This document shows positions 130 to 38,210 of a stretch of 64,000 bases of DNA, piece after piece. Within the stretch, counting starts at the first letter, position 1; the number at the start of each line of letters is the position of its first letter. A program made the translations under genes and the position numbers. A model generated the notes under the pieces. The model ran no database searches. It was not told where the DNA came from and worked only from the letters and a program-made list of their open reading frames with translations. This stretch comes from Anaerolineae bacterium (GTDB lineage Bacteria > Chloroflexota > Anaerolineae > Aggregatilineales > Aggregatilineaceae), in assembly GCA_018432315.1 (NCBI GenBank), contig JAHDLB010000021.1, forward strand, positions 62,001-126,000, written 5' to 3'.

Positions 130-1314
130 ATGGGCGATTTCCGGTATGGTGTCGTGGGCGCGGGGCGGCAGGGCGTCGCCACCGCGTATGATATGGCCGC
201 GCAGGGCGGCGGGGCCAGCGTGCTCGTGATGGATCGCGATGCGGACGTGGCGCGCCGCGCCGCCGAGCGGATCAACCGGCTGCTGGGCCGGAGCGTCGCG
301 CAGGGGCGCCCACTGGACGCCCGCGACGGCGACGCCTTGGCCGCGGCGCTCGCCGGGCTGGACGTGTTTCTGTGCGGCACGCCGTTCGAGATGATCCCCC
401 AGGCGACGGAAGCGGCGCTGCGGGCCGGGGTGAGCATGGTGGACTATGGCGGGCACACGCCGACCGTGCTGGCCCAGCTCCAGCGCGACGCCGAGGCCAA
501 AGCGGCGGGCATCGCCGTCGTGCCGGACTGCGGCATGGGCCCCGGCATGAACAACACGCTGGGCGCGTACGCCGTCGAGCTGATGGAGGGCGAGGGATTA
601 GACCCGCGCGAGGTGTACCTGTGGGACGGCGGCCTGCCGCAGAACCCGGTCCCGCCGTGGAACTACCAGCTCACGTTCAACATCAACGGGCTGACCAACG
701 AGTATTACGGCGAGGTCGCATTTCTGCGCGGCGGCCAGATCACGATGGTTGGCGCGTTCGAGGAACTCGAACACCTGGCGTTCGACGGCGTCGGCGCGCT
801 GGAGGCGTTCACCACCACGGGCGGGACCAGCACCGCGCCGTACACCTTCGAGGGCCGGCTCCAGGTCTACCAGAACAAAACCTGCCGCTGGCCGGGCCAT
901 TACGCCACCTTCAAAGCCTACCAGCAGCTTGGCCTGTTCGAGCTGGAGCCGGTCATGGTCCAGGGGCAGCCCGTGGTCCCGCGCGAGGTGTTTCACGCGC
1001 TGCTGGCCCCCCAGATCAGCGCGCCGGTGGTCGAGGATGTGTGCGTCATGCGCGCCAAAGGCGTCGGGCTGGACGCCGGCGGGAGGCCCCGCGCCGTGAT
1101 CATCGACCTGGTCGATCGTTACGACCCGGCGACGGGCTTCACCGCCATGGAGCGCATCACCGGCTGGCACGCGGGCATCATGGCCGAGTTCATCGCGCGG
1201 GGGCAGGTGGCGCCGGGCGTCTGGCCGATGGAGCGGGCCGTCCCCGCCTCGACGTTCGTGGAAGCCGCGCGGGCGCGCGGGTTTGCGATCACAGTGCGGT
1301 GGGAAGACGCCTGA
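130..1314 (+). CDS. Saccharopine dehydrogenase-family oxidoreductase
   Basis: A 394-residue protein whose N-terminus reads as a Rossmann nucleotide-binding fold (GAGRQG directly after the first beta strand). It is followed by the long alpha/beta catalytic region typical of saccharopine dehydrogenase / lysine 6-dehydrogenase-like enzymes. The usual role is NAD(P)-dependent oxidation or reduction of an amino-acid or imino-acid substrate in the cytosol; the substrate cannot be told from sequence. The reading frame stays open upstream, but the ATG used here directly precedes the Rossmann strand and follows a GAAAGGA ribosome site, so upstream residues are excluded. A TATACT box at 85-90 could be its -10. 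It stands alone and is convergent with the dehydratase gene at 1352-3298. Length and motif fit the family; the specific function is uncertain. Confidence 0.85.
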   Translation: MGDFRYGVVGAGRQGVATAYDMAAQGGGASVLVMDRDADVARRAAERINRLLGRSVAQGRPLDARDGDALAAALAGLDVFLCGTPFEMIPQATEAALRAGVSMVDYGGHTPTVLAQLQRDAEAKAAGIAVVPDCGMGPGMNNTLGAYAVELMEGEGLDPREVYLWDGGLPQNPVPPWNYQLTFNINGLTNEYYGEVAFLRGGQITMVGAFEELEHLAFDGVGALEAFTTTGGTSTAPYTFEGRLQVYQNKTCRWPGHYATFKAYQQLGLFELEPVMVQGQPVVPREVFHALLAPQISAPVVEDVCVMRAKGVGLDAGGRPRAVIIDLVDRYDPATGFTAMERITGWHAGIMAEFIARGQVAPGVWPMERAVPASTFVEAARARGFAITVRWEDA

Positions 1315-1351
1315 CCCGCCTACAGCGGCGAGTCAGGCCGGTTGGAGCATA

Positions 1352-3298
1352 TCACTCTACGGTGACGGTTTCGCGCTGCACGACCGGAAGCTGGACCGGA
1401 GCCGGCGCGGACTCGTCGACGATGATCGCGCGCAACTGGTCGATCGGGCTGCTTTCGGCGCCAAGCCCGTCGCTCGCCAGCCGGCCCACCTGCTCCATGA
1501 ACTGCGACATGCGGCGCCCGTTGGTGGACGTGACAAGCTGCAGGATGTCGGGATGGACCGTCGGCAGCGTCTGCTCGACGTGGTCGTGCAGTTCTTCGTG
1601 CAGCTTCTCGCCGGGCCGCACGCCGGTGAACTCGATCGGGATGTCGATGTAGGGCCGCAGGCCGCGCATCCGGATCATGCGCTCGGCCAGGTCCAGAATG
1701 CGGACCTCATCGCCCATTTGCAGCATGAACAGGTCGTCGCCTTTGGTCAGGCAGGCGGCGTGAATGACCAGGTTCACCGCCTCGGGGATGGTCATGAAGT
1801 AGCGGCACATCTCCGGGTCGGTGACGGTCACCGGGCCGCCCGCGTCGATCTGCCGGTTGAAGGTCGGGACCACGCTGCCCCGGCTGTTCAACACGTTGCC
1901 GAAGCGCACCGAGGTATACAGCGTGCTGTTGTGGCATTTCTCGGCCAGGGCGTGCATCATCAACTCGCAGACGCGCTTGCTGGCGCCCATCACGCTGCTC
2001 GGATTCACAGCCTTGTCGGTCGAGATGAGCACGAACCGCTCCGCGCCAAATTCCATCGCCAGCTCGGCCACCTGGCGCGTGCCGCCCACGTTCACGCGGA
2101 TGGACTCGTCCGGGTAGTCTTCGAGCATGGGCACGTGCTTGTAGGCTGCCGCGTGGAAGATCACGCGAGGATGATGCTGCGCGAACACGCGCTCCAGCAC
2201 GGGGCGGCTGGTGATGTCGGCCAGAACGGGCACCAGCTTGTGCCGGTTCTCGTCGGTGATCAGCTCGGTGACCAGATCGTGCAGGCCGCTCTCGTTGTTG
2301 TCGAGCAGGATCAGCTTGACCGGCTCGTACTTGAGGATCTGGCGGCACAACTCGGAGCCGATCGACCCTGCCGCGCCGGTGACCAGGACCACTTTCTGCT
2401 GGACCGGCGACACGTCGACGCCTTCGTGCCAGCCGACGATCTGGCGGCCCAATAGGTCCTCGGGTTGGACGTCGCGCAGCACCGTCGCGCCCTTGTCCTC
2501 GCTGATCACGGCGAACACGTCGGGCATGACCTTGATGCGGGCTTTGGTTCGCTCGCAGTAGCTGAGGACGTCGCGGAATTCGGGGCCGGTGATGTTGTGC
2601 ACGGCGACCACGATCAGGTCCACATTGTGCGCCATGACGAGGCGCGGAATGTCGGCGCGGGCGCCGAGCACCTCGGACCCTTCGACGTAAAGATGCTGCT
2701 TGGCCGGATCGTCATCGACGAAGCCGACGACGCGGTAATCCGAGCCCGACGGGGCGCGGTGCTTCAAGCGCCAGGCGGTGGTCTGGCCGGCGTCGCCCGC
2801 GCCGACGATCAGCACGCGCGTTTCCTGGTTGGGGAATTCCTGCCGCCAGATGGCGCGCCAGCGCCACGTCGCGCCGCTGATCACCCGCGAGCGGTAGCGC
2901 ACCGTGACGAAGCCGATCAGCGAGAGGGTTTGCCCGACCAGCACCGCCGCCGTCGGCAGCGGGCGCGGCTCGATCGTGTAGTTGGCCGCCGCGATGATCA
3001 GCGCCGCCCCAACAGCCGCGCGGACGATGACCGTCACGTCGTGGCCGCTGGTGCGCATCCACAGGCGATGGTAGCCGCCCGACAGGTACAGGCAGATCAG
3101 CGTGATCGCAACTGCGAACGCCATGAAGCTGGCGCCCTGCCTGAGGTCGGGCATGTTGGTGGTGCGCGCGGAGTAGGCGATGTAGTAGGCGATCAGGATA
3201 ATGGCGGTGTCCATCGCGGCCAGCGGCGCAATGCGTTTGACATGGCGACCCGCGCGCTTGAAAAAGGTTCTGGTACTCATAGGGCGTTGAATACGCAT
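1352..3298 (-). CDS. Membrane-bound nucleoside-diphosphate-sugar 4,6-dehydratase (CapD/PglF/WbpM type)
   Basis: A polysaccharide-biosynthesis dehydratase with four predicted membrane spans in the first ~130 residues, a CoA-binding-like Rossmann domain (VLIVGAGDAGQ) and a C-terminal SDR domain with TGAAGSIGSE for NAD binding. The catalytic stretch STDKAVNPSSVMGASK carries Met where most SDR enzymes have Tyr, as is known for the long PglF/WbpM enzymes. These convert UDP-GlcNAc to a 4-keto-6-deoxy sugar for surface glycans or glycoprotein modification, at the inner face of the membrane. Possible starts are ATG at 3340, 3298 or 3280 (minus strand); none has an ideal ribosome site, and 3298 is chosen because GAGGG sits just upstream. 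It is 8 kb from the polysaccharide cluster, across the sugar operon. Function class is secure, the start is not. Confidence 0.88.
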   Translation of the reverse strand: MRIQRPMSTRTFFKRAGRHVKRIAPLAAMDTAIILIAYYIAYSARTTNMPDLRQGASFMAFAVAITLICLYLSGGYHRLWMRTSGHDVTVIVRAAVGAALIIAAANYTIEPRPLPTAAVLVGQTLSLIGFVTVRYRSRVISGATWRWRAIWRQEFPNQETRVLIVGAGDAGQTTAWRLKHRAPSGSDYRVVGFVDDDPAKQHLYVEGSEVLGARADIPRLVMAHNVDLIVVAVHNITGPEFRDVLSYCERTKARIKVMPDVFAVISEDKGATVLRDVQPEDLLGRQIVGWHEGVDVSPVQQKVVLVTGAAGSIGSELCRQILKYEPVKLILLDNNESGLHDLVTELITDENRHKLVPVLADITSRPVLERVFAQHHPRVIFHAAAYKHVPMLEDYPDESIRVNVGGTRQVAELAMEFGAERFVLISTDKAVNPSSVMGASKRVCELMMHALAEKCHNSTLYTSVRFGNVLNSRGSVVPTFNRQIDAGGPVTVTDPEMCRYFMTIPEAVNLVIHAACLTKGDDLFMLQMGDEVRILDLAERMIRMRGLRPYIDIPIEFTGVRPGEKLHEELHDHVEQTLPTVHPDILQLVTSTNGRRMSQFMEQVGRLASDGLGAESSPIDQLRAIIVDESAPAPVQLPVVQRETVTVE

Positions 3299-3375
3299 CC
3301 CTCGACTTTCCCCCCCAAAAAATTCCGACCGGCCCGGCAACCCTTAACGCCCGTCAGTTCCTCAACGATGTGACT

Positions 3376-3403
3376 ATTGTACAACAAGATTTTGGCTGCA
3401 CAA
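3376..3403 (-). promoter_or_regulatory. Possible promoter of the 4,6-dehydratase gene
   Basis: On the minus strand TTGTGC (3398-3403) and TACAAT (3376-3381) are separated by 16 bp, about 80 bp upstream of the likely start of the dehydratase. The surrounding 3360-3480 stretch is AT-rich in an otherwise GC-rich window, which fits a promoter region. An alternative TTGAAT/TATCAT pair lies slightly further upstream. Confidence 0.4.
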
Positions 3404-29876: not shown

Positions 29877-30662
29877 ATGATTCGACGCGAAGAATCCGAC
29901 TCTTTCTGGCTGATTCACCAGGCTGCACACGCATTCATTTCGGGCCAGATCGCCGGACACTGGATCGGGCAGGACGCCGCGACCCCGTCCCTGCGCGAGG
30001 AGCTGATCATCGCCGCCACCTGCCACGACGCCGGGTGGGCACGCGCCGAGCGCTCCCCCCAGATCAACGCCCAGGGCCAGCCGCGCACCTTCACCGAGAT
30101 GGACATGGACGATCACTTCGTGATCTGGACCGACAGCATCAACGCCGTTTTCGTCCAGAACCGCTATGCGGGCCTGCTCACCAGCCTGCACTGCTCGGAC
30201 CTGTACCAGAAGCGGCTGCGCTTCCTGGCCGATCCGCCGCCGGCGCGCGCCCGGATTCACGACTTTCTGGACGAGCGCCGGGCGTGGGAAGAGAACCTGA
30301 TCGGCGCGCTGTCCGGCCACCCGCGCTACGCGCTGGCCGTCGAGGAGAAGGCGCTGGCGCACAACCTGCGCCTGCTGCAAGTGTGGGACTACCTCTCGCT
30401 GGTGATCTGCATGCGCGCCGTCCACGAGCAAACGCTCGAAGATGTGCCCCTCGACGGCGGCGAGCGCGTGCTGCTGCGCATTGCGGGCAGCGGGCCGCGC
30501 GGCATGACGCTCGATCCCTTCCCGCTGGACGGGCCGCTGACGCTGTGGATCGACGCGCGGCAGATCCCCGGCGTGCCGTTCGACAGCGACGAAGCGCTGC
30601 GCCGCGTGTTGGAAGGGGTGCCCTACAAACCCCTGGTGTTCGAGATTGGCCCGGCCAGTTGA
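29877..30662 (+). CDS. DUF3891 family protein
   Basis: A 261-residue cytosolic protein matching DUF3891: an N-terminal FWLIHQAAHAFISGQIAGHW, then CHDAGWARAE, the YAGLLTSLHCSDLY motif, and a conserved LLQVWDYLSLVIC near residue 170. The ordered His and Asp residues (HQ, HD, LH) resemble HD-type metal phosphohydrolases, but no activity has been shown for the family. It begins at ATG 29877 with AAGGA upstream and ends 19 bp before a LuxR-type regulator gene. Confidence 0.87.
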   Translation: MIRREESDSFWLIHQAAHAFISGQIAGHWIGQDAATPSLREELIIAATCHDAGWARAERSPQINAQGQPRTFTEMDMDDHFVIWTDSINAVFVQNRYAGLLTSLHCSDLYQKRLRFLADPPPARARIHDFLDERRAWEENLIGALSGHPRYALAVEEKALAHNLRLLQVWDYLSLVICMRAVHEQTLEDVPLDGGERVLLRIAGSGPRGMTLDPFPLDGPLTLWIDARQIPGVPFDSDEALRRVLEGVPYKPLVFEIGPAS

Positions 30663-30681
30663 CGCTCTGCAGGAGAATACC

Positions 30682-31437
30682 ATGATCGGCAAAACCAACC
30701 TCAAAGTGCTGGTGCTGGATACCGACTATTACGCCCGGCAGGCGATCAACAGCTACCTGGCCTGGGACCGGCGCACCCGCGTCGTGCACCTGGCCGAGAC
30801 GATGGAGTCGGTCGTCGATTACGTGCGGCGCGTGCCCGAAACCGAGTGGCCGGACGTCGTGTTGTTGGACGCGCAGGCCGCCAATACGCCGCAAGAACTG
30901 GCGGAGCTGGTCAAGCATATCGAGGACACGATCCCCGACGTGATGACGCTGGTGCTCGACCGGAAGCTGGACATGGATGCGCTGCGCGCGTGCGTGAAGG
31001 CGCGCGTCAACGGGTACCTGCTGCGCGACGAGCTGCGCATCCGGATCGCGTGGGCCATCGTGTGGGCCCAGGAACACGATTTCGTCGTCACCCAGAGCGT
31101 GAAAGACGCGCTCAAGGACGAATTCGAAGGGCGGTTGTTCCGCGCCCGCGTCGTGCCGGACCGCCGCGTCTATCCCGAACTCACCGAGCGCATCCGGCAG
31201 GCACTGCAATTGTGCGTGGTCGAGGGCATGTCCGCCGAGCTGGCCGCCGACGAGATGGGCATCAGCCCGCACACCGTCCGCAGCTACATCAAACAGGGCT
31301 ACCGCATCCTCGAAGCGTACGACGATACCGTCTACCCGCCGGACATGAGCCCGCAGGAGCGCGCCTTCATGCGCTTCACGGCGCTGGTCGAGGACGAGAA
31401 GAACGTCCAACCGGCGAGCAACGCGCCAGAGCCCTAG
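30682..31437 (+). CDS. LuxR/NarL-type DNA-binding response regulator, receiver partly degenerate
   Basis: A 251-residue regulator. Residues 1-125 are a receiver-like domain: KVLVLDTDYYARQAINSYL supplies the acidic residues and DVVLLDAQ the phospho-acceptor Asp. The conserved Lys of the GYLLKD motif is Arg (GYLLRDEL), so phosphorylation may be altered. Residues 165-220 form a LuxR-type helix-turn-helix (EGMSAELAADEMGISPHTVRSYIKQGYRIL). ATG 30682 has a CAGGAGA site. No sensor kinase gene adjoins it; it is likely co-transcribed with the DUF3891 gene. Targets are unknown. Confidence 0.85.
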   Translation: MIGKTNLKVLVLDTDYYARQAINSYLAWDRRTRVVHLAETMESVVDYVRRVPETEWPDVVLLDAQAANTPQELAELVKHIEDTIPDVMTLVLDRKLDMDALRACVKARVNGYLLRDELRIRIAWAIVWAQEHDFVVTQSVKDALKDEFEGRLFRARVVPDRRVYPELTERIRQALQLCVVEGMSAELAADEMGISPHTVRSYIKQGYRILEAYDDTVYPPDMSPQERAFMRFTALVEDEKNVQPASNAPEP

Positions 31438-31531
31438 CCGCCCGCGCCGGGTCACCGCCGCCGGGCATGGCGAACGAGGTGGAGGTGCGCGCATTTTTTG
31501 CAATAATCTACACACGAATCGACACACGCCA

Positions 31532-31567
31532 GTTGAAACGAAGCGCCAATGCGCGTAATATTTCAAC
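31532..31567. repeat. Inverted repeat in the gap before ccmF
   Basis: GTTGAAA (31532-31538) and TTTCAAC (31561-31567) enclose a small GCGC-CAAT-GCGC hairpin. It lies about 95 bp after the response-regulator stop and lacks a T tract. The 31438-31819 gap holds this element, a TATTAT box at 31653-31658 and the folded leader below, but no gene. Confidence 0.4.
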
Positions 31568-31702
31568 GGCTATTGATGTAAAATGCCACTTTGCGCCCAA
31601 AAAGGCACCTTTTGTCACGGGTGCGGATGTGGAAAGGGCTGTCGAGATCGAGTATTATATCTTATGAATTTTTAGGAAATAGAACGTTCATCGTCGGAAA
31701 GC

Positions 31703-31794
31703 ACAGGCAGCAAGCGCGGCAGTTTGCGCGAGTCAGTTCCCGGCTAGAGGGGGGGAGCGACTGCTGACGCATTCGGTCATCGCTTGCTGCTTGT
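31703..31794 (+). promoter_or_regulatory. Structured 5' leader of the ccm operon
   Basis: ACAGGCAGCAAGCG (31703-31716) can pair with CGCTTGCTGCTTGT (31781-31794) over 14 bp with one G-T pair. The loop holds a smaller TGAC/GTCA hairpin. It ends 12 bp before the ccmF ribosome site (CAGGAGA). It matches no riboswitch I know and may be a protein-binding leader or chance folding. Confidence 0.35.
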
Positions 31795-31819
31795 CTGTTA
31801 TTTATCAGGAGACCACGCC

Positions 31820-33931
31820 ATGATCGCTGAGATCGGCATCATCGCAACTGGCCTGGCGTTTGTGGCGGCAGTGTACGCGATCGTCGCGGCGCTGGTGGGC
31901 ATGACGACCCGCCGCGACGCGCTGGTGACGAGCGCCCGCAACGCTGCCATTGCCACTTTCCCCCTGCTGACCGTGTCGTGCGGGCTGTTGGTCTACGCCA
32001 TGCTCGACCACGACTACAGCATCGCCTACGTCTGGCAGACCACCGACAACAACACGCCCGCCTTCTACCTGGTTACCGGGCTGTGGGGCAGCCAGGCCGG
32101 GTCGCTGTTGTTCTGGTCGTGGCTGATGAGCGGCTTCGCGGCTGCCGCGCTGCTGCTCAACTGGCGGACCGAGCGCCGCCTGATGCCCTACGTCATCGCC
32201 GTGACGATGGCGACGCTCGGCTTTTTCCTGATCCTGAATAATTTCATCGAGAACCCGTTCGAGCGTTATTGGGTCACGCCGGAGACGGGGCGCATCCAGC
32301 CCGCGCTGTTCGCCCCGGCAGGGGGCGAGGTGTTCCACCCGGCGGACGGCAACGGCCTGAACCCGCTGCTGCGCCACCTGGGCATGGTGATCCACCCGCC
32401 GATGCTGTACCTGGGCTTCGTCGGCTTCACCATCCCGTTCGCGTTTGCCTTTGCGGCGCTGGCAACCGGGCAGCTTGGCTCCGGCTGGCTGCACGCCACG
32501 CGCCGGTGGGCGCTGGTCGCGTGGCTGTTCCTCAGCCTGGGGCTGCTGCTCGGCGGGCGCTGGGCGTACGACGTGCTCGGCTGGGGCGGCTATTGGGGCT
32601 GGGACCCGGTCGAGAACGCGGCACTGCTGCCCTGGCTGACCGGCACGGCTTTCCTACACAGCGCCGTCGTGCAAGAAAAGCGCGGCATGCTCAAGTTCTG
32701 GAACATGCTGCTGATCATCATGACCTTCCTGCTGGTCGTGCTGGGCACCTTTGCCACACGCAGCGGAGTCGTCAGCAGCGTGCACAGCTTCGCCGAATCC
32801 GAGATCGGGCGCCCGATGTTCGCGTTCCTCGGCCTCTCGATGCTGGCGAGCATCGCCCTGCTGGCCTGGCGCCAGGAGCGCGGCGACCTGCGCGGCGCGG
32901 ATGAGCTGGACTCGGTCTTCAGCCGCGAGAGCTTCTTCCTGCTCAACAACTGGATGTTCCTGGGCCTGACGGTCGTTGTGCTGTGGGGCTCGTGGGCCGA
33001 AGCGATCACCACGATCCTGGTCGACCTGGGCCTGCGCGACACGATCATCAACCTGGGGCCGGACTACTACCCGCCGGTCGTGCGCCCGTTCCTGATCGGG
33101 ATCTTCATCCTGATGGGCATCGCGCCGCTGGCCGCGTGGCGCCGCTCGACCGCCGAGCGCCTGGGCCGCGCCCTGATCGTGCCCACCGCGCTGGCTGTCG
33201 CGCTGATGGCCTACCTCGTCGCGACCGGCACCGACAGCCCGTGGGCGCTGTTGGGCTATGGGCTGGTCACTTTTGCCGGCCTCGCTACCCTGGCCGAGAT
33301 CTGGAAAGGCATGGCGGCCCGGCACCGGCGCGGCGAGAATTACCTCGCGGCGCTGCTGGCGCTCGTCCGGCGCGACCGGCGGCGTTATGGCGGCTACTTC
33401 ATTCACCTGGGCATGGTCGTCATGGGCATCGGCGTGATCGGCAGCTCCGGCTTCCAGAAGACGACGATGCAGACGCTCAACGTGGGCGACCGCCTGACGT
33501 TGGGCCACTACGAGCTTCAGCATAACGGGCTGTACGAAGCTCAGGCCGAAGATGGCCGCACCATGATCGTGGCGCGGACGGCGGTCTACAGGGATGGCGA
33601 GCTGGTCGCCAACGTGCGCCCGCGGCGCGACATCTTCATGACGACCGATCCCGCGACGGGCATGCCCACGCCGGGCACCAATATGAGCATTCCCGGCAAC
33701 TACAGCACCGTTGCTGAGGACTTCTACGCGATTATCACGCACTGGAACGGCAACACGGTCACCTTCCGCGCCTACCTGAATCCGCTGATCAGTTTCGTGT
33801 GGATGGGGGGCTTCGTCCTGATCATCGGGACGATGGTCGCGCTGTGGCCGTCGCGCCAGCCGGACGCGGTTACGCGCAAGCTGGCGGTGCCGTCCGGGCA
33901 TGCCGGCGCGCGCGCCGGGGGAGGGGACTAG
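31820..33931 (+). CDS. ccmF: Heme lyase subunit CcmF
   Basis: A 703-residue integral membrane protein with about 14 helices. It carries the tryptophan-rich WWD heme-binding signature (WGGYWGWDPVENAALLPWL), the preceding HPPMLYLGFVGF loop with a conserved His, and further conserved segments such as TRSGVVSSVHSF. CcmF with CcmH attaches heme to CXXCH motifs of apocytochromes outside the membrane (system I). The start MIAEIG follows CAGGAGA at the end of a structured leader. Stop TAG and the ATG of ccmH are adjacent, so they are translated as a unit. Confidence 0.96.
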   Translation: MIAEIGIIATGLAFVAAVYAIVAALVGMTTRRDALVTSARNAAIATFPLLTVSCGLLVYAMLDHDYSIAYVWQTTDNNTPAFYLVTGLWGSQAGSLLFWSWLMSGFAAAALLLNWRTERRLMPYVIAVTMATLGFFLILNNFIENPFERYWVTPETGRIQPALFAPAGGEVFHPADGNGLNPLLRHLGMVIHPPMLYLGFVGFTIPFAFAFAALATGQLGSGWLHATRRWALVAWLFLSLGLLLGGRWAYDVLGWGGYWGWDPVENAALLPWLTGTAFLHSAVVQEKRGMLKFWNMLLIIMTFLLVVLGTFATRSGVVSSVHSFAESEIGRPMFAFLGLSMLASIALLAWRQERGDLRGADELDSVFSRESFFLLNNWMFLGLTVVVLWGSWAEAITTILVDLGLRDTIINLGPDYYPPVVRPFLIGIFILMGIAPLAAWRRSTAERLGRALIVPTALAVALMAYLVATGTDSPWALLGYGLVTFAGLATLAEIWKGMAARHRRGENYLAALLALVRRDRRRYGGYFIHLGMVVMGIGVIGSSGFQKTTMQTLNVGDRLTLGHYELQHNGLYEAQAEDGRTMIVARTAVYRDGELVANVRPRRDIFMTTDPATGMPTPGTNMSIPGNYSTVAEDFYAIITHWNGNTVTFRAYLNPLISFVWMGGFVLIIGTMVALWPSRQPDAVTRKLAVPSGHAGARAGGGD

Positions 33932-34492
33932 ATGCTGCGACAGACAAGCCTGCAAACGGCGCTGCTGGCCGGGATGGCCGTGCTGCTGGCGCTGCTGGCG
34001 CCGCTGGCGGTCGAGGTCGCGCCGGTGCGCGCCCAGGGCGGCGAGTTCGATCTGCCGCCCGGCGTCACCTGGGACGAGGTGAACTCGATCGCCCGCCGGA
34101 TGTACTGCGACGTGTGCGAGGGCATCCCGCTGGACGAGTGCGAGAGCGTGGCCTGCCGCCGCTGGCGCGAGGAGATCGCGCGGTTGTTGGGCGAGGGCTG
34201 GACCCGCGATGAGATCATGGATCACTTTGTCGAGCGCTATGGCGCGGACGTGGCCGCGCTGCCGCGCAGCACTGCCGACCGGATTCTGGCGTTCGCCACC
34301 CCGGCGGCGATCGTGCTGATCATCGGCTTGATCGGCGCGCTGCAAGTCCGCCAGTTTCGCCGGCGCGGCCAGCAAACCGGGGAAGTCGTGCGCCGGTCGG
34401 GGAGCCGCTTGCAGGCGCGCCCCGTCCCGGACGACGTCGATCCCGCCTATCTGGAACGTTTGGAACGCGAGTTAGAGGGTCTTGAATCATGA
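33932..34492 (+). CDS. ccmH: Cytochrome c maturation thiol protein CcmH
   Basis: A 186-residue protein with an N-terminal export/anchor helix (residues 8-25), a CcmH helical domain and a C-terminal membrane helix (AAIVLIIGLIGALQV). The redox pair Cys59-Cys62 (RRMYCDVCEG) corresponds to the LRCxxC motif. Two additional cysteines follow at 70 and 75 (DECESVAC), which the usual family lacks. CcmH reduces or holds the apocytochrome CXXCH for heme ligation. It directly abuts ccmF and overlaps ccmG by 4 bp. Confidence 0.9.
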   Translation: MLRQTSLQTALLAGMAVLLALLAPLAVEVAPVRAQGGEFDLPPGVTWDEVNSIARRMYCDVCEGIPLDECESVACRRWREEIARLLGEGWTRDEIMDHFVERYGADVAALPRSTADRILAFATPAAIVLIIGLIGALQVRQFRRRGQQTGEVVRRSGSRLQARPVPDDVDPAYLERLERELEGLES

Positions 34493-35133
34493 GCGAGAAC
34501 GAGTTGACCAACAGCCCACCCCCACAGTCCGATCTGCCCGACTGGCTGGAACAGATGGCCGGGGGCCAGCCGCAGGAAGGGGACGAACCGGTCCAGCAGC
34601 GATTCTCGGCGTTCGGCGTCACGGCCATCCTGATCATCGTCGGCCTGCTCTTCGTCATCGGGTACGCGCTCTACCAGCGCAACCAGTCCACGCCGACCGA
34701 AGGCCCGGCGCCGGAATTCAGCGTGACGGTGTTCGATGCTGAGCAGTTGGAGCGCCAGGGCGAACGCTTGAATCTGGCCGACTTTCGGGGTAACGTCGTG
34801 GTGATCAATTTCTGGGCCAGCTACTGCCTGCCCTGCCGCGACGAGGCGCCCGTGTTCGAGCGCGTCTGGCGTGAGTACCGCGATCAAGGCGTGGTGTTCC
34901 TGGGCATCAACACCGACGATATCGAGCGCGACGCGATGGCCTATATGGCCGAGTTCGATATCACCTATCCCAACGCGCCGGATCAGGGAGGCCGCATCGA
35001 AGACCAGTATCGCATCACCGGCATTCCAGAGACGTTCGTGATCAACGCCGACGGTGAAATCACCTGGCATATCCCCGCTCCGGCCAGCGAGCGGGAACTG
35101 CGCGCCGAGATCGAGCGCGCCTTGCAGAGCTGA
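34489..35133 (+). CDS. ccmG: Membrane-anchored thioredoxin-like protein (CcmG/ResA type)
   Basis: A 214-residue thiol-disulphide protein. An acidic N-terminal tail (~40 residues) precedes one membrane helix (VTAILIIVGLLFVIGYALY) and an extracytoplasmic AhpC/TSA-type thioredoxin fold: VVINFWASYCLPCRDEAP with active-site Cys113 and Cys116, VFLGINTDD, and the cis-Pro loop GIPETFVI. CcmG/ResA keeps apocytochrome cysteines reduced. It begins in the ATGA overlap with ccmH, which fits cluster function. Confidence 0.92.
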   Translation: MSENELTNSPPPQSDLPDWLEQMAGGQPQEGDEPVQQRFSAFGVTAILIIVGLLFVIGYALYQRNQSTPTEGPAPEFSVTVFDAEQLERQGERLNLADFRGNVVVINFWASYCLPCRDEAPVFERVWREYRDQGVVFLGINTDDIERDAMAYMAEFDITYPNAPDQGGRIEDQYRITGIPETFVINADGEITWHIPAPASERELRAEIERALQS

Positions 35134-35158
35134 TGCGTACTCAAAGTGAAGTCTATCG

Positions 35159-35542
35159 ATGTCTGTAACGAGCCTGATCATCGCTGTCGTCCTGGTGGGA
35201 ACGGTCGTCTTCGCGACCCTGCTCCCCTTGCTCGAAAGCCGGCCCGCGCCCCAGAAACGCCGTTCGGGGCGCGGCACGCTGCACCAAAACCAGGTCATCG
35301 AAATTCTGTGGGATGAAAAAATGCGCGTCCTGCGGTCCATCCGCGACCTGGATTTCGACTACGATATGGACAAACTGCCCGATGCGACCTACCAGGCCCA
35401 GCGCCTGCACCTGATCCGGCTGGCCTGGGCGATCACCCAGCGCCTGGACGATCTGGAGGCCGAGGTGGCGGTGCAGGACGCCCGTATCGAGGAAGCCGTC
35501 GCCGCGTTTCGCCAATCGAGCGCGGCAGCCAAAGCGAAATGA
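35159..35542 (+). CDS. Small membrane protein with CcmI-like helical motif
   Basis: A 127-residue protein: one N-terminal membrane helix (SLIIAVVLVGTVVFATLLPLL), a basic patch, then a helical region VLRSIRDLDFDYDMDKLPDATYQAQRL and a further amphipathic helix. The middle motif resembles the stretch of CcmI proteins (L.EL..D...GK....Y), and a related motif ends the neighbouring cytochrome lipoprotein. Its place between ccmG and the cytochrome gene supports a role in apocytochrome handling, as for CcmI. It lacks the TPR part of classical CcmI. Assignment is tentative. Confidence 0.65.
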   Translation: MSVTSLIIAVVLVGTVVFATLLPLLESRPAPQKRRSGRGTLHQNQVIEILWDEKMRVLRSIRDLDFDYDMDKLPDATYQAQRLHLIRLAWAITQRLDDLEAEVAVQDARIEEAVAAFRQSSAAAKAK

Positions 35543-35578
35543 CGCTGATTCAACACTGGGATAACCGGATTGCCATCT

Positions 35579-37441
35579 ATGTCTGATTCGACTGTTCATC
35601 GGTATTGGTTTGTCGTCGCCCTTGTGCTGGCCCTGGCGCTGAGCGCGTGCGGCGTGAATATGTCCGGCGAGCCGAAAGTCATCGACGAGATCGAGATTCT
35701 GCCGCAGCCCACCCAGCCGCCCACGCAAACGCCCGCGCCCACCGCTGAGGACGCCGCGGCTGAGGAGGAGGCCACCGCGCCCGCCGACGAGCCCGCGGAT
35801 TCCACGCCGGAAGCGCCGGCAGCGGCAGGGGATTCGCTCGCTAACCTGGACGCCGCCGACTTCGACCAGGGGTTCCAGGTTTACCTGGCCGAGTGCGCCT
35901 CATGCCACGGCGCCCAGGACGGCGTCGGGCCGCCGCTGGCGGGCATGGCCGAACGGGCCGCCGAGCGCGTCGAGGGCCAGTCTGCGGCGGATTACCTGTA
36001 CCAGTCCATCGTCGACCCGGCGGCCTACGTCGTCGAGGGCTACCAGAACATCATGCCCGGCGGCTATGCCGACCAGCTCAGCGAGCAGGAACTCAACAGC
36101 CTGGTGAAGTTCATGCTGGAATTCACCCCCGAGTCGATGATGGCCGGGACGGGCGCGAACCAGGCCAGTGTCCCGCCCGCTGACGACGCGTCGGAAACCA
36201 CCGGGGACGCCGCGCCGGAAGAGACGCTCACCGTCCGCGGGCGGCTGGTGCAGGGTACGATTGGCGGCGACCCGCTGCCCGGCGATCTGCCGCTCGACCT
36301 GTACGTGCTGGACTCGCACGGCGAGCTGGTCGACATCTACGAGACGACCTCGACGGACGATCACACGTTCGAGTTCACCGATGTGGCGCGCGGGCGCGGC
36401 TATATCTACCTCGTCCAGACAGACTATGCCGACGTTCCCCAGGGCGCGCAGATTCCGTCCATCCAGGGCAACGAGCAGGCGCTCGAAACCGAGATCATCC
36501 TCTACGAACGCACGACCGACCGGTCGTCGGTGGCGGTGCGCTGGGCGCAGATGCTGATCAACTTCGCGCCGATCGAGGAGTTCGGCCTGGAAGTGTGGCT
36601 GCGGCTGGAGCTGGCGAACACCGGCGACGAAATCGTCGCCACCGACGAGGTCGCGGCCAACAACTGGCCGGTGTCGGTCGAGATCGAGCTGCCGGTGGGC
36701 GCGTTCGGCATCCAGCCCATGCAGACCGAAGGCAGCCAGCGGTACGAAGTGATCGTCGAGGAGGGCGTGCCCATCGTCAAGGATACGTGGCCGCTGCGCC
36801 CCGGGCAGACCCACTCGATCACCGTGGCGTATTACCTGCCGTACAGCGACGGCGCCGTGCTGGAGCAGGGATTCGGTTACCCGGTGCTCGATGCGACGGT
36901 GCTGGTGCCCAACGATACGGTCACCTTCGCCAGCGACCAGCTCGACACCGAGGGCGACTGGCGCTACCGCGTGATGGCGGGCGGCGCGCGCGTCAGCGAG
37001 CTGGCGCCGGGCGAGGAAATCGATCCGGAGCGCGATTTTTCGCTGGTGAGAGCGCACGACCTGCTCCAGCCGCTGCGCGCCGACGATCACCTGGTCTTCG
37101 AGCTGATCGGCACGCCCACCCGCACGCTCGACGTGATGACGGCGGATAGCTCGTCCGGCGGCTCCGATACGGACCCGTTGCCTTACATCCTGGCCGGGGC
37201 GGGGCTGGCGGTGATCGCCCTGGCGGGCGTGTTGTGGTGGCGCCAGCGCGGCGCGCCGGAGGCGCCGGTCGATACGTGGCAGCCGCCCGACGCGTCGGCG
37301 GGCAAAGAGGCGATCCTGAAGACGATCGCGGACCTGGACAACGCCTACGAGGCCGGGTTCATGGACGAGGAAACCTACCTGCGGCGGCGGGCGCTGCTCA
37401 AGGAACGCCTGATCCCGCTGATGGACGACGACGAATCCTAG
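35579..37441 (+). CDS. Composite cytochrome c lipoprotein with C-terminal membrane helix
   Basis: A 620-residue extracytoplasmic protein. The lipobox LALSAC gives lipid-attached Cys24. An acidic Pro/Thr/Glu linker follows, then a class I cytochrome c domain with the heme motif CASCH (Cys106, Cys109, His110) and a probable Met ligand in QNIMPGGYAD. Next come a carboxypeptidase-regulatory-like beta domain (~210-320) and a further beta domain (~320-525), then a membrane helix (LPYILAGAGLAVIALAGVLWW). A cytosolic helical tail (ILKTIADLDNAYEAGFMDEE) resembles the CcmI-like motif of the preceding gene. It is probably a substrate or dedicated partner of the ccm system encoded around it. The ATG at 35579 is preferred over TTG 35570. 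Function unknown. Confidence 0.8.
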   Translation: MSDSTVHRYWFVVALVLALALSACGVNMSGEPKVIDEIEILPQPTQPPTQTPAPTAEDAAAEEEATAPADEPADSTPEAPAAAGDSLANLDAADFDQGFQVYLAECASCHGAQDGVGPPLAGMAERAAERVEGQSAADYLYQSIVDPAAYVVEGYQNIMPGGYADQLSEQELNSLVKFMLEFTPESMMAGTGANQASVPPADDASETTGDAAPEETLTVRGRLVQGTIGGDPLPGDLPLDLYVLDSHGELVDIYETTSTDDHTFEFTDVARGRGYIYLVQTDYADVPQGAQIPSIQGNEQALETEIILYERTTDRSSVAVRWAQMLINFAPIEEFGLEVWLRLELANTGDEIVATDEVAANNWPVSVEIELPVGAFGIQPMQTEGSQRYEVIVEEGVPIVKDTWPLRPGQTHSITVAYYLPYSDGAVLEQGFGYPVLDATVLVPNDTVTFASDQLDTEGDWRYRVMAGGARVSELAPGEEIDPERDFSLVRAHDLLQPLRADDHLVFELIGTPTRTLDVMTADSSSGGSDTDPLPYILAGAGLAVIALAGVLWWRQRGAPEAPVDTWQPPDASAGKEAILKTIADLDNAYEAGFMDEETYLRRRALLKERLIPLMDDDES

Positions 37442-37493
37442 CGCCTGTTGGCGGGCTGCGCGTTCGGCGGCCTGCCAGAGCTGCGACACGACG

Positions 37494-38210
37494 ATGATCG
37501 AAATTCGCAAACTGACCAAGACCTTTGGCCTGAACCCCGTCCTGCGCGGGCTGGACCTGGACGTCGAGCGCGGCCAGTTCCTGGCGCTGCTGGGCCCCAA
37601 CGGCTCCGGCAAGACGACGCTGCTGCGCATCCTGGCGGCGCTGTCGCGGCCCACCGGCGGTACGGTCCGCATCGGCGGCTGGGACCTGCCCGCCGAGGCC
37701 GACTTCGTGCGGGCGCAGTTGGGCGTGGTGAGCCACCTGCCGCTGTTGTACGACACGCTCACCGCCGAGGAAAACCTGCTGCTCTTCGCGCGGCTGTACG
37801 ACCTGCCCGCCGAGGAGCGCCGCCCGCGCGTGGATGCGGTCCTGGAGCGCGTCGGGTTGAAGCGGCGGGCGCGCGACGTGGTGCGGACCTTCAGCCGGGG
37901 GATGCAGCAGCGGCTGGCGATCGCGCGCGCCATCCTGCACGACCCGGCGATTCTGCTGCTCGACGAGCCGTATACCGGCCTGGACCAGGATGCTGCCGCG
38001 CTGCTCGACACGCTGCTGCGCGAGGTGGCGGTCGGCGGGCGCACGGTGGTCATGACGACTCATGACCTGCGCCGGGGCCATGCCCTCGCCGACCGGATCG
38101 CGATCCTGAGCCGGGGCAAGATCGCGCTGGACAGCCCGTGCGCGGATATCGATCCCGACGCGCTGCCCGCGCTGTATTCCGACGTGACAGGAGCCGCCAC
38201 TACACGATGA
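37494..38210 (+). CDS. ccmA: Heme-exporter ATPase CcmA
   Basis: A 238-residue ABC ATPase with Walker A (GPNGSGKTT), Q-loop (VVSHLPLLYD region), signature TFSRGMQQRLAIARA, Walker B LLLDEPYTGLD and the H-loop His in MTTHD. With CcmB and CcmC it drives transfer of heme to the extracytoplasmic chaperone in system I maturation. It starts 52 bp after the cytochrome lipoprotein and overlaps ccmB by 4 bp (ATGA), indicating coupling. Confidence 0.92.
   Translation: MIEIRKLTKTFGLNPVLRGLDLDVERGQFLALLGPNGSGKTTLLRILAALSRPTGGTVRIGGWDLPAEADFVRAQLGVVSHLPLLYDTLTAEENLLLFARLYDLPAEERRPRVDAVLERVGLKRRARDVVRTFSRGMQQRLAIARAILHDPAILLLDEPYTGLDQDAAALLDTLLREVAVGGRTVVMTTHDLRRGHALADRIAILSRGKIALDSPCADIDPDALPALYSDVTGAATTR

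Follow-up and report, generated by a model that had tools for sequence, protein, structure and literature searches.

Comparison of related Chloroflexota shows that a hairpin of about 90 bases lying directly upstream of ccmF is conserved in its predicted shape rather than in its sequence, and this hairpin is probably an undescribed control element of the cytochrome c assembly genes. On balance, we favour the view that it is a family-specific, cis-acting 5′-UTR hairpin of the ccmF operon that either binds a protein or stabilises the mRNA.

The ccmF leader and its hairpin

The element was found in the window, the whole 64-kb stretch of DNA analysed here, which derives from a genome of 5.69 Mb (G000). 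The first-pass annotation had singled out the gap preceding ccmF, and the gap, inverted repeat, TATTAT box, 14-bp pairing and inner hairpin that it described are all present where it had placed them. The features of the locus, with coordinates numbered within the window, are as follows.

30646-31437, response-regulator/LuxR-like ORF directly upstream of the gap
31438-31819, + strand, 382-nt gap upstream of ccmF, flanked by the end of the preceding ORF (31437) and the ccmF ATG (31820)
31532-31567, + strand, inverted repeat GTTGAAA/TTTCAAC, outside the conserved element
31630-31635, + strand, −35-like box TGGAAA (spacer of 17; TGGCAN-like in relatives)
31653-31658, + strand, −10-like box TATTAT
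31703-31794, + strand, conserved RNA hairpin element of 92 nt (covariance model R1; comparative evidence)
31703-31716, + strand, 5′ arm of the outer stem P1, ACAGGCAGCAAGCG
31736-31758, + strand, apical hairpin P4, in which GTTCCC (31736-31741) pairs with GGGAGC (31753-31758)
31781-31794, + strand, 3′ arm of the outer stem P1, CGCTTGCTGCTTGT
31807-31811, + strand, ribosome-binding site AGGAG of ccmF, read by eye
31820-33931, + strand, ccmF, the first operon gene after the leader (Pfam PF01578 and PF16327)
33932-34492, + strand, CcmH, opening the gene run 33932-38210 that follows ccmF
34489-35133, + strand, thioredoxin-like protein, putatively of CcmG type from position and domain
35159-35542, + strand, 127-aa ORF
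35579-37441, + strand, cytochrome c domain protein
37494-38210, + strand, ABC ATPase, putatively of CcmA type from position and domain

Judged by eye, the ORFs beyond 38210 look like CcmB and CcmC. The product of the ORF preceding the gap is response-regulator-like, with a LuxR/sigma-4-like HTH and a receiver domain that falls below the Pfam cut-off; several relatives have ccmE at that place.

P1 comprises 14 bp including one G-U pair, closes a 92-nt irregular hairpin and ends 12 nt before the AGGAG. When G-U pairs and loops of up to 100 nt are allowed, dinucleotide shuffling of the gap produces a perfect 14-bp hairpin in 22 of 1000 trials, and the 64-kb window contains 14 hairpins of the same kind. 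Fold z-scores are −1.69 for the whole gap and −1.36 for 31680-31822, and the exactly excised hairpin, with ends picked from the fold itself, reaches −4.0. Judged from the window sequence alone the hairpin is mildly unusual and the evidence weak, whereas comparison with relatives provides strong and decisive evidence.

Distribution and linkage to ccmF

CcmF relatives were detected in 58 of 61 genomes, and the DNA before ccmF was examined in 14 of the family's 18 genomes. Nine genomes spanning four genera (G000, G001, G004, G007, G012, G013, G014, G015 and G017) carry the element in a shared layout, with CAGGCAGC on the 5′ side and its partner on the 3′ side enclosing a CCC...AGGGGG core. R1 matches exactly one site per genome in these 9 of 18 family genomes, always directly before ccmF, with E-values from 1e-15 to 3e-7; the model was built from the same nine members, which makes these scores partly circular, but not the uniqueness of the site in each genome. 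A hairpin with an R1 score at chance level occupies the same place before ccmF in G002 and G010, which we regard as weak look-alikes, and the element is absent from G006, G008 and G011 despite a readable ccmF start. It is, therefore, absent or diverged in 5 of the 14 family leaders examined and is not essential for ccmF. On the CcmF tree, the presence/absence label requires three changes, and the element may have been gained once, early, and later lost.

The look-alikes at loci L007, L014, L018 and L019 score 9.6-10.7 bits with R1 (E 1.8-3.2) and were excluded from membership. L018 and L019, from another family (f4), have at 1376-1419, between ccmE and ccmF, a short hairpin (AGGCAGCAGGCG/CGTCTGCTGTCT) that scores 10.6 bits with R1 (E 1.9); this is possibly a distant relative of the element, or chance.

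Searches with R1 were extended to class, order and phylum samples, which overlap and contain family members. The order sample (154 genomes) yielded nine family matches plus two weak ones (E 0.018 and 0.030), the class sample (396 genomes) yielded two family matches plus four weak ones (E 0.031-0.046), and in the phylum sample (400 genomes) G000 alone was detected at E ≤0.01. The weak matches are within chance for that many genomes, and no convincing copy of the element was found by R1 outside the family in these samples; plasmid records gave no match.

In five of the nine members (L006, L009, L010, L011 and L015) ccmE is the upstream neighbour, while no ccmE was detected in the loci of the window, L004 (where 506 nt upstream were covered), L005 or L012; in the window's own genome ccmE is on the same contig, some 63 kb away. 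Since the upstream neighbour varies, the element belongs to ccmF and not to the preceding gene. The distance from its 3′ end to ccmF ranges from 25 to 105 nt across the nine members.

Comparative evidence for an RNA structure

To assess pairing between the two sides of the hairpin, each 5′ half was joined to every 3′ half among seven distinct members, leaving out the near-copies L005 and L011. As few as 20 of the 5040 permutations were as good as the true combinations for the whole element, 16 when the outer arms were removed and 17 with a midpoint cut, compared with 648-3385 of 5040 when the test was applied to eight stretches taken from these genomes as controls (seven within ccmF and one upstream). 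An alignment of P1 and P4 made by hand reveals changes on both sides of the apical helix (GTT/AGC, AGGC/GCCT, CGGCCA/TGGCTG and CAGCCG/CGGCTG), where the CCC...AGGGGG core is common to members and the flanking helix pairs vary by genus. In P1, the pair changes are C-G to U-A (L007) and G-C to A-U (L014), counting those two look-alikes, together with several G-U pairs, and one broken pair (L010) was found across the nine members. Earlier use of RNAalifold on a sequence-only MAFFT alignment, which misaligned the inner helices, had given a small covariation term (−0.59), and this approach was replaced by the covariance model and the swapped-half tests. The first-pass annotation had staked its proposal on conservation and covariation of the stems among relatives, and when this was checked the main stem proved to be kept, with compensatory changes.

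Thermodynamic predictions are mixed. For L004 and L005, the exact element gives modest fold z-scores (−1.3 to −1.6), and in predicted folds of whole leaders P1 has a probability of at least 0.87 in five of the nine members and of at most 0.09 in the other four (L004, L006, L009 and L011), where other pairings are preferred.

The letters of the P1 5′ arm are nearly constant and further conserved letters are present in the apical loop. A constant arm is what might be expected of a DNA-level feature, that is, two inverted AGGCAGC operator copies or a cruciform in place of an RNA structure. We consider this unlikely, as the arms are approximately 65-70 bp apart, most of the differences still allow G-U pairing on the sense strand, the antisense strand folds worse than the sense strand in seven of seven members, and the inner helices co-change. 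It is similarly improbable that the hairpin is a functionless leftover of a mobile or repeated sequence, as its patchy occurrence in family leaders might imply, given that each genome has a single copy and that pairing is preserved while letters change across four genera.

Transcription and possible modes of action

A TATNAT-like box ends 34-44 nt before the element in all nine members and is preceded, 17-18 nt upstream, by a TGGCA/TGGAA-like box; in L009 and L011 these boxes were picked by eye, the script having ranked others first. Given these promoter-like boxes, the element is probably part of the 5′ UTR. From them we infer that the hairpin is transcribed; its effect on the operon would be exerted in cis. 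Transcription of the ccmF operon would start from a promoter at about 31630-31658, and the mRNA would bear, some 30-40 nt from its 5′ end, a long irregular hairpin composed of a GC-rich outer stem of the CAGGCAGC/GCUGCCUG type and the CCC...AGGGGG apical core. In the searched loci of relatives, no counterpart was detected for the inverted repeat at 31532-31567, which had been counted as part of the leader; the window's own copies are the only ones.

Other sites were observed upstream. In genus g5 (L006, L015 and L004), the −10 box is located within a palindrome (like GGCATATTATTATGCC) just upstream of the element, possibly an operator over the promoter, and in L006 (z −1.97) and L015 (z −2.92) the 83 nt preceding the element are predicted to fold well. 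The sequence TTTGTCAC, a possible activator site, was seen by eye some 40 nt before the −10-like box in the window (31611-31618) and in L009, L010 and L011 (genus g2).

No Rfam family matched the element in the window at the gathering score, in agreement with the initial statement that the leader fits no known riboswitch class, and nothing was detected at the element in 11 loci at E-values up to 10. The Chloroflexi-1 (RF01698) and pan (RF01749) motifs, which are likewise structured RNAs reported from Chloroflexi (PMC2864571), were among neither set of matches. The HRC-8-4 motif is likewise a candidate structured RNA, found in Rhodobacterales next to operons for cytochrome c oxidase (cco), and its authors see a vague resemblance to the HMP-PP and guanidine-IV riboswitches; by this description it is set apart from the ccmF element by phylum and by associated genes (PMC8632094). 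In SAR11, ccmC transcripts increase under sulfur limitation, and the accessible text of that study ties no riboswitch to ccmC (PMC5069961). Within the parts available of a mostly open-access literature on ccmF and riboswitches, Chloroflexi structured RNAs, and heme riboswitches with cytochrome c maturation, no description of the element was found.

Three further classes found no support: a leader-peptide attenuator, because no short ORF is shared by 11 leaders; an intrinsic terminator, because the stem in the window has no following T run; and a LoaP/RfaH-type antitermination leader, because G000, G001 and G014 each have one NusG-domain match. Processive antitermination through a specialised NusG paralog that recognises the hairpin would suit its place at the start of a long operon, and a second NusG-domain protein is encoded in G004, G007, G013 and G015, yet the single NusG in three element-bearing genomes makes this a very remote prospect; G012 and G017, in which no NusG was found, are presumably incomplete assemblies.

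A metabolite riboswitch, responding for example to heme or a redox cofactor, could control the cytochrome c maturation operon, and a structured, conserved 5′ leader (its transcription inferred as above) does precede this heme-handling operon; letters are conserved in its 5′ arm and apical loop, it has no Rfam match, and folds compete in four of nine leaders. However, we found no expression platform of the expected kinds. There is no terminator-like site (stem plus T run) in 31400-31850 of the window, and in the predicted whole leaders the ribosome site is hardly paired with the element in seven of nine members (≤0.01; 0.30-0.34 in L009 and L011). The variable spacing to ccmF, the single simple hairpin and the single gene site per genome also argue against a riboswitch, which we regard as improbable. 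Quite unlikely, too, is an RNA particular to this lineage that senses a ligand or redox state and switches the whole System I operon, with the competing folds as its two states. The earlier suggestion of an RNA regulatory leader is thus upheld with regard to the conserved main stem downstream of a conserved promoter-like pair, but not with regard to a riboswitch expression platform, and nothing in the analysis points to the sensing of heme or iron that it had proposed.

Since neither a switchable terminator nor a mask over the ribosome site was found, action after initiation is favoured over a metabolite riboswitch. Most likely, the hairpin would act once transcription is under way, by offering an RNA-binding protein a place to attach or by setting mRNA lifetime as a 5′ stem. 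Stabilising 5′-UTR stem-loops of bacterial mRNAs, such as that of E. coli ompA, are located near the 5′ end and need not touch the ribosome site. The ccmF element resembles them in its inferred position near the mRNA 5′ end and in requiring no contact with the ribosome site, but differs in its conserved loop and 5′ arm letters, which suggest that it may be recognised by a protein rather than serving as a plain stabilising stem.

The element is, therefore, a compact candidate cis-acting RNA from a little-studied phylum, tied to the machinery of heme attachment. Should heme supply or redox state indeed prove to be sensed by the hairpin, cytochrome c assembly would have a route of control through RNA.
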